Shown: in pieces, positions 29,150 through 33,895 of the stretch
Layout of the letters: each line of letters opens with the position of its first letter
Position numbering within the stretch: the first letter of the stretch is position 1
Source: Winogradskyella costae
Lineage (GTDB): Bacteria; Bacteroidota; Bacteroidia; Flavobacteriales; Flavobacteriaceae
Length of the DNA stretch: 64,000 nt
Reading direction: 5' to 3'
NCBI RefSeq assembly: GCF_013403865.1
Contig: NZ_JABFDK010000006.1
Span: 124,001-188,000 of the forward strand
The notes under the pieces: model-generated
Told to the model about the DNA's origin: nothing
Database searches by the model: none
The model's input: the letters and a program-made list of their open reading frames with translations, nothing else
Position numbers and translations under genes: made by a program

Positions 29150-29285
29150 AATGCGTACTACAATACCGTAATGTCAATACTATTGATTTTTCAACTTTTA
29201 AACCGACTTTCAAATCAAGTCTTAATTCTTAATTTTTGATTCTTTATTCTAAAGGCTAAGCACACTAAATTCTTAAAATAAAAAC

Positions 29286-31256: not shown

Positions 31257-32147
31257 ATGAAAAATATAGCAGTTATAGGTGCAGGAACCATGGGAAATGG
31301 TATTGCGCATACCTTTGCACAATCAGGATTTAACGTTCAACTTATTGATATTAGTGAAGACTCTTTAAAACGAGGCATGGATACCATTTCTAGAAATTTA
31401 GACAGAATGGTCGCTAAAGAAAAAATAAGCGAGACTGATAAATCGACTACTTTAGGAAACATTACAACATTCACAAGTACTGAAGACGGTGTAAAAAATG
31501 CTGATTTAGTCGTTGAAGCAGCCACAGAAAACATCGATTTAAAATTAAAAATATTTAAACAACTCGACGAGGTTTGTGATGAAAACACCATTTTAGCAAC
31601 TAACACCTCCTCTATTTCAATTACTCAAATTGCAGCTGTAACATCACGACCAGAGAAAGTTATAGGCATGCACTTTATGAATCCTGTACCAATTATGAAA
31701 TTGGTAGAAATCATTAGAGGTTATAGCACTAGTGATGATGTCACCACAACTATTATGGAGCTCTCAAAAACTTTAGGTAAAGTACCAACAGAAGTTAACG
31801 ATTATCCAGGTTTTGTTGCCAACCGTATTTTAATGCCAATGATAAACGAATCAATAGAAACCCTTTACAATGGAGTTGCAGGTGTTGCTGAGATTGATAC
31901 CGTTATGAAATTAGGCATGGCACATCCAATGGGACCGTTACAACTTGCTGATTTTATTGGTTTAGATATCTGTTTATCTATTCTTAATGTGATGTACGAT
32001 GGCTTCAAGAATCCAAAATACGCACCATGCCCTCTATTAGTTAATATGGTAATGGCAGGAAAATTAGGTGTGAAATCTGGAGAAGGTTTTTATGATTATT
32101 CAGAAAGTCGAAAGGCTGAGAAGGTTGCTGGTCAGTTTTTGAAGTAA
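31257..32147 (+). CDS. hbd: 3-Hydroxybutyryl-CoA dehydrogenase
   Basis: A 296-residue dehydrogenase that interconverts acetoacetyl-CoA and 3-hydroxybutyryl-CoA. The NAD motif is VIGAGTMGNGIA (8-15), the catalytic His is H139 in VIGMHFMNPVP with its partner E151 in KLVEIIRG, and the C-terminal domain has GFVANRILMPMINE, GMAHPMGPLQLADFIGLD and SGEGFYDY. It is of typical length. The gene ends with TAA overlapping the first base of the AAAAGTGTAAAG repeat that starts the following inverted-repeat element. Confidence 0.95.
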   Translation: MKNIAVIGAGTMGNGIAHTFAQSGFNVQLIDISEDSLKRGMDTISRNLDRMVAKEKISETDKSTTLGNITTFTSTEDGVKNADLVVEAATENIDLKLKIFKQLDEVCDENTILATNTSSISITQIAAVTSRPEKVIGMHFMNPVPIMKLVEIIRGYSTSDDVTTTIMELSKTLGKVPTEVNDYPGFVANRILMPMINESIETLYNGVAGVAEIDTVMKLGMAHPMGPLQLADFIGLDICLSILNVMYDGFKNPKYAPCPLLVNMVMAGKLGVKSGEGFYDYSESRKAEKVAGQFLK

Positions 32148-32180
32148 AAAGTGTAAAGGCTGAAGTGTGAAGTGTGAAGT
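32147..32180 (+). repeat. Left inverted repeat of the four-helix-bundle element
   Basis: AAAAGTGTAAAG (32147-32158) is the exact inverse complement of CTTTACACTTTT at 32634-32645. It continues into GAAGTGTGAAGTGTGAAG, an 8-base tandem (GAAGTGT) that weakly matches the inner part of the right repeat. Confidence 0.6.
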
Positions 32181-32255
32181 AAGATTACTCAATTAATACA
32201 GTAATTAATGAAAGTATAAGACTTAATAGCTTACAAGAAAGGTTTTAAATTAGCA

Positions 32256-32579
32256 ATGGATATATTTCATCTTTCTAAGAAATTTCCTAAAGAAGAAACG
32301 TATTCACTTACGAATCAAATAAGAAGATGCTCTCGTAGTGTTTGCGCTAATTTATCTGAAGCCTATAGAAAGCGACGATATCCGAAACATTTTATTAGTA
32401 AACTTACAGATTGTGATGCTGAAAATGGAGAAACACAAACTTGGCTAGAATTTGCTTTAGCTTGTGATTATATTTCAAATGAGACCTATAACAACTTACT
32501 GAAAGAATCACAAGACATAGCTAATCTCATAAATTATATGATATTGAATCCTAACAAATTCGGTTCAAAAGAATCTTAA
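32256..32579 (+). CDS. Four-helix-bundle protein (S23/23S rRNA intervening-sequence family), N-terminus interrupted
   Basis: The open frame from ATG 32256 gives 107 residues of the four-helix-bundle family (TIGR02436 type; also called 23S rRNA intervening-sequence proteins): MDIFHLSKKFPKEETYSLTN, SVCANLSEAYRKRR, ETQTWLEFALACDYI. The reading frame in fact continues 16 codons upstream to ATG 32208: M-K-V-stop-D-L-I-A-Y-K-K-G-F-K-L-A, matching the usual N-terminus except for TAA at 32217-32219. So the gene either starts internally and is short, or has lost its proper start. Function is unknown in free-standing copies. No 23S rRNA gene is near. Confidence 0.75.
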   Translation: MDIFHLSKKFPKEETYSLTNQIRRCSRSVCANLSEAYRKRRYPKHFISKLTDCDAENGETQTWLEFALACDYISNETYNNLLKESQDIANLINYMILNPNKFGSKES

Positions 32580-32611
32580 CATAAAGTAAAATTACATAAA
32601 TAAGAACTATT

Positions 32612-32648
32612 ACTTATTACTCAACACTTTTCACTTTACACTTTTCAC
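32612..32648 (-). repeat. Right inverted repeat of the four-helix-bundle element
   Basis: CTTTACACTTTT (32634-32645), embedded in CAACACTTTTCACTTTACAC, mirrors the left copy at 32147-32158. It ends just before the DUF1015 gene start at 32657. Confidence 0.6.
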
Positions 32649-32656
32649 TAAAAAAA

Positions 32657-33895
32657 ATGCCCAAAATAATCCCATTTAAAGCGGTAAGACCAACCAGAGC
32701 AATCGTTGGCCTCGTTGCAGCACGTCCTTATCAAAGTTATACGATTGATGAGCGCGAATCACGAATGGCTTATAATCCTTACAGTTTTCTTCATATTGTG
32801 AATCCTGGTTACAAATACGACCAAGAAGTGATAGGTGAAGAACGCTATAAACTCGTAAAGAATAGATATTCTGAATTTAAAGAGGACGGTATTTTTGTTC
32901 AAGATATAAAACCGTCCTTTTATGTGTATAAAATTGTGAATCGGCATGGCCAAGAATTCAACGGTATTGTAGCAGCGACAAGTGCTGAAGATTACGAAAA
33001 TGACCTCATAAGAAAACATGAAGATACGATTGCCAAACGTGAAGAAACCTTTAAAAGCTACTTACAAACCGTTGGCTTTAATGCCGAACCTGTTTTATTA
33101 ACTTATCCTGATAACACTGTAATTGCTAGCATTATAAATGATACTCAAAAAGGGCATGCTGAGTTCGAATTTACAATGACGTATAGAGACACGCATTATT
33201 TATGGAAAATAGATGCTGATGATACTATTGCAACCATTCAAAAAGAATTCGAAAAAATGAAAACGGTTTATATTGCTGATGGTCATCACAGATCAGCTTC
33301 ATCTTATCTTTTATACAAAGATGAAAAAGCAAAGAACTCTAATCATAACGGCAGTGAGTCTTATAACTTTTTTATGTCGTATTTAATTCCAGAATCGGAT
33401 TTAGTGATTCATGAATTTAATAGATTAATAAAAGGCTTAAACGGTTTAACAAAAAAGGAATTCTTAATAAAACTAGATGCGTCCTATCGTATTGAAAACA
33501 GAGGGTTAATACCCTATAAGCCTTCTAAACCACATCATTTCAGCATGTATTTGGATGGTGAATTTTATTCACTTTACTTAAGAAAATCCGAATACAATTT
33601 CAAAACGGCATTAGACCAATTAGATGCACAGTTATTATATACAACAATTCTGCAGTCTATTTTAGGAATTAACGATTTACGACATGATAATCGAATTTCA
33701 TACGTCAATGGCCAACATGACATGATAACCATCAAAAGTAGCGTAGATAGTGGTGACTATACCGTTGGCTTTGGGATGTGTCCTTCTAATGTTGAACAAA
33801 TGAAACAGATTGCAGACGAGGGTTTAACCATGCCTCCCAAAAGTACTTATATTTTACCAAAGCTGCGAAGTGGAATTACGATTTATGAATATTAA
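32657..33895 (+). CDS. DUF1015 domain-containing protein
   Basis: A 412-residue cytoplasmic protein of the DUF1015 family: IIPFKAVRPTRAIVGLVAARPYQSY at the start, the run RYKLVKNRYSEFKEDGIFVQD, and the family's hallmark IADGHHRSASSYLLY (D208-G209-H210-H211-R212). No function is established. In Bacteroidota it is often near serine or one-carbon genes; here it follows hbd and the four-helix-bundle element. The D-G-H-H-R motif resembles the nucleotide-binding motif of the ParB/Srx fold, but I cannot confirm the relation. Confidence 0.88.
   Translation: MPKIIPFKAVRPTRAIVGLVAARPYQSYTIDERESRMAYNPYSFLHIVNPGYKYDQEVIGEERYKLVKNRYSEFKEDGIFVQDIKPSFYVYKIVNRHGQEFNGIVAATSAEDYENDLIRKHEDTIAKREETFKSYLQTVGFNAEPVLLTYPDNTVIASIINDTQKGHAEFEFTMTYRDTHYLWKIDADDTIATIQKEFEKMKTVYIADGHHRSASSYLLYKDEKAKNSNHNGSESYNFFMSYLIPESDLVIHEFNRLIKGLNGLTKKEFLIKLDASYRIENRGLIPYKPSKPHHFSMYLDGEFYSLYLRKSEYNFKTALDQLDAQLLYTTILQSILGINDLRHDNRISYVNGQHDMITIKSSVDSGDYTVGFGMCPSNVEQMKQIADEGLTMPPKSTYILPKLRSGITIYEY

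Follow-up and report, generated by a model that had tools for sequence, protein, structure and literature searches.

Intervening sequences (IVSs) of 23S rRNA can carry a four-helix S23/IVP-type ORF between complementary ends that are able to form a stem. MITEs, or non-autonomous transposons, are small units with inverted ends, and the STRR sequences of cyanobacteria are heptamer repeats. To our knowledge, free-standing genes of the PF05635 family (23S-rRNA-intervening-sequence protein) have no known function. The accessible part of PMC4990558 describes a 428-nt IVS in the 23S rRNA of Coxiella burnetii whose ORF is preceded by tandem heptameric repeats and whose terminal stem is cut by RNase III; the ORF is said there to undergo reductive evolution. 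Small 23S rRNA IVSs without an ORF exist beside ORF-bearing ones, according to the available part of PMC2672173; the string “heptam-” is absent from its main text. The available part of PMC4679880 describes intergenic arrays of TAACTGA and related heptamers, which it also reports for a small number of Bacteroidetes, adding that two of these have other heptamers too; “23S”, “S23”, and “four helix” are absent from the main text of that paper. Our literature search, in which most subscription papers and all preprints were out of reach, found no paper linking free-standing PF05635 genes to inverted heptad arms.

We analyzed a PF05635 gene in the window, that is, the whole 64-kb stretch of DNA under study. 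The gene lies between two co-directional ORFs, which, following the first reading of the window, we take to be hbd and DUF1015. The features of the locus are as follows.

31257..32147, + strand: upstream co-directional ORF, putative hbd (ORF call)
32142..32183, + strand: 5′ arm, heptads AAGTAAA, AAGTGTA, AAGGCTG, AAGTGTG, AAGTGTG, AAGTAAG (by reading)
32147-32158, + strand: left copy of a perfect 12-bp inverted repeat, AAAAGTGTAAAG (exact match)
32208..32255, + strand: N-terminal part of the family frame from ATG 32208, interrupted by TAA at 32217-32219
32256..32579, + strand: PF05635 / TIGR02436 four-helix-bundle gene, 107 aa if the start is ATG 32256
32611..32649, + strand: 3′ arm, heptads TACTTAT, TACTCAA, CACTTTT, CACTTTA, CACTTTT and a final CACT (by reading)
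32634-32645, − strand: right copy of the 12-bp inverted repeat, CTTTACACTTTT, complement of the left copy (exact match)
32657..33895, + strand: downstream co-directional ORF, putative DUF1015 (ORF call)

The preliminary description of this locus reported a four-helix-bundle gene enclosed by a perfect 12-bp inverted repeat with weaker matches further inside, and a frame reaching back to ATG 32208 through a TAA. Our analysis confirmed the repeat, the gene, and the interrupted frame, and revealed that the weaker matches are 7-bp tandem repeats: the 12-bp repeat is the best-matching stretch within two degenerate 7-bp arrays. TRF identified (AAGTGTG)4.6 with period 7 at 32149-32180 in the left arm and (CACTTTT)3.6 with period 7 at 32625-32649 in the right arm, and an inverted-repeat search extended the 12-bp pair to 67-nt arms with a 72% match (32129-32195 / 32597-32663). 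By reading, the left array starts on the last codons of hbd, whose stop codon overlaps the left 12-mer copy by one base, and the right array stops 7 nt short of the start codon that follows. The repeat had been proposed for a search of the whole genome; an exact search located the 12-mer in two places only of the 4.13 Mb, namely the two arms. A lag-7 scan of the 64 kb returned two stretches, 29217-29250 and 32153-32184, with the window's right arm below that level, while at lags 5, 6, 8-11, and 13 no stretch of the 64 kb passed, nor did any in five base shuffles. The stretch at 29217-29250 is a second 7-bp array, TCTTAAT-like with 4.4 copies, in the space that separates two convergent ORFs, and no PF05635 match was found there. 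A target-site duplication was looked for at the window unit and none was recognisable; four empty hbd-DUF1015 junctions have 3-nt gaps (AAA, GTA, AAA, AAA) with A-rich edges, at which a duplication is indistinguishable. Rfam returned three matches within 31800-33000, all below gathering scores and none ribosomal.

The 107-aa product was assigned to PF05635 (E 9.8e-27; 93.7 bits against a curated cut-off of 33.8) and TIGR02436 (E 1.2e-26; 93.1 bits against 24). It has a weak profile likeness to bAvd, the accessory protein of diversity-generating retroelements, below both curated cut-offs (PF22296, 32.8 bits against 40; NF033474, 27.2 against 80). The window genome contains six PF05635 matches, one of them with an inner TAG (L023, G000:C11:499849-500139). 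PF05635 genes were found in 42 of the 60 genomes searched, the window genome counted in, and in 157 of 198 sampled genomes of its phylum, often in multiple copies.

The window unit resembles a 23S rRNA IVS in having a four-helix S23/IVP-type ORF inside complementary ends able to form a stem, and its length, about 0.5 kb, is similar to that of the Coxiella burnetii IVS. In contrast, it lies between protein-coding ORFs and not inside a 23S rRNA gene, its type of arm word varies by site, its protein is under purifying selection, and its excision is putative. Small ORF-less IVSs parallel the gene-less arm arrays discussed below but occupy another location (PMC2672173, as far as available). TAACTGA-type arrays are intergenic tandem heptamers like the window arms, but are described as direct repeats, with one indirect in the main genome (PMC4679880, available part). 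The unit is MITE-like in its inverted ends, its presence or absence at the junction, and its apparent exchange as a whole; it is unlike a MITE in that its copies have no common end sequence, no recognisable target-site duplication, and no near-identical dispersed copies, and in that its gene is conserved. An Rfam scan of 20 PF05635 loci placed none within 23S rRNA and returned nothing relevant, so that the link to rRNA IVSs draws on the protein family, the layout, and one paper. Taken as a whole, the window unit is probably a free-standing IVS-type element, composed of a PF05635 gene and inverted 7-bp arrays and seated between two same-direction genes.

Matching inverted heptad arms recur around most PF05635 genes examined. 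In the genus of the window, we scored strict base pairing between the two flanks of a locus, comparing its own flanks with those of other sites, for 96 PF05635 loci from 33 genomes; this set combined 10 initial loci, six loci of the window genome, and 80 picked among the matches listed, and so was not random. Clustering of the flanks gave 27 sites. Mean complementarity was 16.4 within loci against 9.4 across sites, with 75 of the 96 loci and 22 of the 27 sites above the cross-site 95th percentile. Under strict pairing, the own partner ranked first in 65 loci, and 21 loci were without clear arms. For 46 genes of the window, the same score averaged 9.7 and reached 15.5 at most. A first score that allowed G.U pairs (own 49.3, cross 35.6), under which the own partner beat all cross partners in 39 of 96 loci and 12 of 27 sites, separated poorly and was given up for strict pairing.

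The wider scan of titled genome records covered the best 80 of at least 591 PF05635 matches, 79 of which were usable. Many of these records are metagenome bins whose taxon is possibly misassigned; by title, the best 80 of at least 591 are mostly Bacteroidota, together with Clostridia, Anaerolineae, KSB1, Gracilibacteria, Gottesmanbacteria, and others. Own pairing in this selection was 20.2 against 9.7 across loci, 60 of the 79 exceeding the 95th percentile and 19 lacking clear arms, and the dominant period of the 59 strong-arm loci was 7 in 43 and 8 in 11. Thirty further loci from a phylum search scored 17.2 against 10.0; their own 95th percentile was exceeded by 20, a score of 12.5 by 23, and one of 14.2 by 18, so that, depending on the threshold, 7 to 12 of them were without clear arms. 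The levels of 12.5 and 14.2 were exceeded by 3 and 1 of 30 loci of a control family, PF02575, and by 32 and 22 of 40 PF05635 loci from nine many-copy genomes. Within matched arms, identity was 0.45-0.58 at lags 7 and 14 in the 96-, 79-, and 30-locus sets and 0.19-0.33 at other lags, except for lag 8 in the 30-locus set (0.40, 0.43). The lag-7 excess was smaller over whole flanks than inside arms, both in the 96 loci (0.36 against about 0.29) and in the comparison of the 30 loci with PF02575 (0.32-0.33). These sets bear on the reading that chance inverted repeats flank an ordinary gene: the sequence is AT-rich and a 12-bp match by itself is modest, but the 12-mer is confined to its two places in the genome, and three locus sets, compared across sites and with a control family, all show the layout, which makes chance extremely improbable.

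The arm word usually differs between sites (TTAGATT, GGTGATG, CAGTCTT, TTAGCTT, and GACGGAA are among those of the genus set), and related sites may have one word in common. The own arm partner beat that of the orthologue in 9 of 13 multi-member sites, 4 of these with p < 0.05 by permutations that ignore sequence kinship, while at sites 1, 8, 10, and 11 the arms paired no better with their own partner. The most closely related proteins at different sites mostly have similar arm words, with exceptions such as L021-L117, whose arms are unlike. Over 51 clustered sites, words tracked protein kinship weakly (Mantel r 0.10, p 0.018), a signal that comes from 13 close site pairs; with one locus per site, the genus set gave no signal (0.029, p 0.35). 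A stronger value in the wider set (0.183) was set aside because it included loci of one site. We also considered whether arms are seeded by their target. The 5′ arm was slightly more similar to the last 24 nt of its own upstream ORF than to those at other sites (7.07 against 6.30, p 0.004), while the 3′ arm had no likeness to the start of the next ORF (5.97 against 5.99); target seeding is therefore not claimed.

Most of the units sit between co-directional genes. In a mechanical ORF count over 176 loci, an ORF on the same strand lay directly upstream in 166, downstream in 154, and on both sides in 148; opposite-strand ORFs lay upstream in 15 and downstream in 52. By a different counting method, 20 of 51 of the window's own genes had same-strand neighbors on both sides. 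The junctions used include groES-groEL and thrB-thrC, as identified by sequence reading and not by annotation, and some PF05635 sites are common to named genomes of other genera. In the window genome, the groES-groEL gap (L245; G000:C11, after 350467) reads as gene-less heptad arms with an AGC word; several relatives likewise have gene-less arms there, and G017 (L232) has a PF05635 gene. Nineteen gene-less groES-groEL gaps of 40-250 nt paired weakly (own 9.9, cross 8.4), so that the arms in these gaps are a matter of reading. Another palindromic repeat, GGAATC...GATTCC-like, was read in the groES-groEL gaps of other relatives (L234, L239, L241, L244, and L250), as if several element types use this junction.

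The hbd-DUF1015 junction was compared in 37 genomes of the genus, including that of the window: 11 carry the gene, 8 a different and longer insert, and 18 a short junction of 3 to 240 nt. The 11 genes form one clade (support 99/95), and 27 site labels on the protein tree require 27 changes, the minimum being 26. Median omega among the 11 orthologues was 0.076, from the 44 of 55 pairs with defined dS, many of which are near saturation; for the window and G032 it was 0.07 (dN 0.021, dS 0.323). The gene at this junction is thus under purifying selection and long-resident. Its presence and absence on the host tree take 4 changes, which is compatible with losses as well as with repeated gains. The junctions L033, L036, L038, L042, L044, L045, L048, and L050 hold the different insert, of 629-705 nt, which contains a putative M23-type peptidase gene where it was read.

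The short junction of L031 reads as a gene-less heptad hairpin, that of L034 keeps the apparent 3′ end of the gene and the right arm, and L036, one of the eight longer-insert junctions, has seven AAAGTGT repeats. Reading of the sequences thus indicates that gene-less arm pairs may exist at junctions where relatives carry the gene. Among all same-genome pairs of copies, none was near-identical (identity at most 0.65 among 155 pairs and 0.75 among another 75).

These results alter the preliminary view of the locus as a small insertion, perhaps a non-autonomous mobile unit: neither a recent insertion nor an ordinary MITE is supported. Occupation of one junction in 11 of 37 genomes by a single clade with low omega speaks against a recent insertion, and the lack of near-identical same-genome pairs, together with end words that differ by site, speaks against a MITE. 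That view was to fall if relatives lacking the gene kept both repeats, or if the gene was an old, fixed member of the cluster: a few such relatives do keep arm-like arrays (L031, L036), and at this junction the gene proved to be old without being fixed. The proposal that the gene is decaying or starts inside held insofar as the window copy looks lesioned. The closest orthologue, the sister copy of G032 (L026), is intact, its frame being open where the window has TAA, and the window's nonsense codon therefore looks recent. It is also possible that the TAA is an assembly error; G011 likewise has an inner stop at this junction. The window copy no longer has the normal N-terminus; either it is in decay or it starts at ATG 32256.

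Purifying selection and long residence at particular junctions would also be expected if the PF05635 protein were a domesticated operon regulator, with the heptad arrays in transcript or DNA as its putative binding sites. Structures of relatives have been solved (2gsc, 2rld), and the title of the 2gsc paper, as given in the reference list of PMC10053308, mentions five four-helix bundles. We consider this role improbable: arm words usually differ between sites, yet the family core is in common, arm-like arrays occur without the gene (L031, L036, and the groES-groEL gaps), and 26 of 37 genus genomes lack the gene at hbd-DUF1015.

Between lineages with agreeing flanks, arms and gene changed as one. 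The host tree pairs the window with G005 (91/92) and G032 with G014 (91/67); the element tree instead pairs the window with G032 and places G005 with G014, G002, and G018. Per 75 nt, the flanks on both sides were 0.81-1.00 identical between G032 and G014, against 0.58 in the element, and the flanks were likewise 0.81-1.00 between the window and G005, against 0.63; the elements of the window and G032 are 0.90 identical. Between the window and G005, identity in the last 75 nt of hbd (0.84) is lower than in the remaining flank, and the exchanged piece therefore has no sharp boundary. Both arm words switch jointly at this junction (own 22.5, other 15.4; p 0.001 by permutation, kinship ignored). 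Co-evolution of the arms in place was considered as a cause, and was rejected since the host tree and the identity profile indicate that the unit was exchanged as a whole. The joint change is most simply explained by cassette exchange; alternatively, related elements may have inserted twice at this junction. Together with the similar words around most close proteins at different sites, the joint change upholds the earlier view of arms and gene as one unit.

As an IVS-type element, the unit would be transcribed together with its neighbor genes, and its arms would form a long stem closed by a loop that contains the gene, like the stem of 23S rRNA IVSs in which RNase III cuts. Heptad slippage and arm-to-arm pairing would keep the two arrays of each site alike; heptamers have been proposed to be favored by slippage (Mrazek 2007, as cited in the available part of PMC4679880). 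In the predicted RNA fold of the unit, the two arms are paired with each other (z -3.25; as good in 1 of 100 shuffles), and the prevailing gene orientation argues for life as RNA. In a wobble test on the sense strand, G.T and A.C mismatches numbered 87 and 130 (27.2 and 31.4 site-weighted) in the genus arms and 60 and 84 in the wider set (expected 56 and 65), with no G.T excess. Selection for RNA pairing is therefore without support, and the pairing of the arms may be kept by DNA-level processes such as slippage.

This result bears on a possible but rather unlikely alternative in which the arms act as DNA, either as terminal inverted repeats or hairpins for rare mobilisation by a putative enzyme or as exchange seats, with the RNA stem as a by-product. 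Besides the lack of G.U bias, this alternative would account for the cassette exchange, the weak tracking of protein kinship by the arm words, and the G-richness of the strand reading into the element at both ends, a symmetry expected of terminal repeats: the 5′ arm had G>C in 53 and G<C in 3 of 59 loci of the wider set, and in 16 and 1 of 18 further loci. A symmetric DNA element would not need the co-orientation of the gene with both neighbors in 148 of 176 loci, and near-identical copies within one genome are missing while words usually differ from site to site. We favor the IVS-type element.

The recurrent layout suggests that an element resembling the insertions of ribosomal RNA genes has been overlooked. 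On balance, we are inclined to extend this to the family: most PF05635 genes across bacteria may be carried by a single class of element that has gone unrecognised. Such an element would be a heptad-armed intervening sequence in mRNA junctions, with inverted arrays of a site-drifting 7-letter word; it would pass between lineages as a cassette and be reducible to its arms, with the rRNA IVS as a special case that landed in 23S rRNA. A common heptad-arm architecture would turn PF05635 genes from orphans into a testable element linked to rRNA intervening sequences. The heptad-armed units would also offer a natural case in which to study how paired tandem arrays in inverted orientation stay matched while their word drifts.
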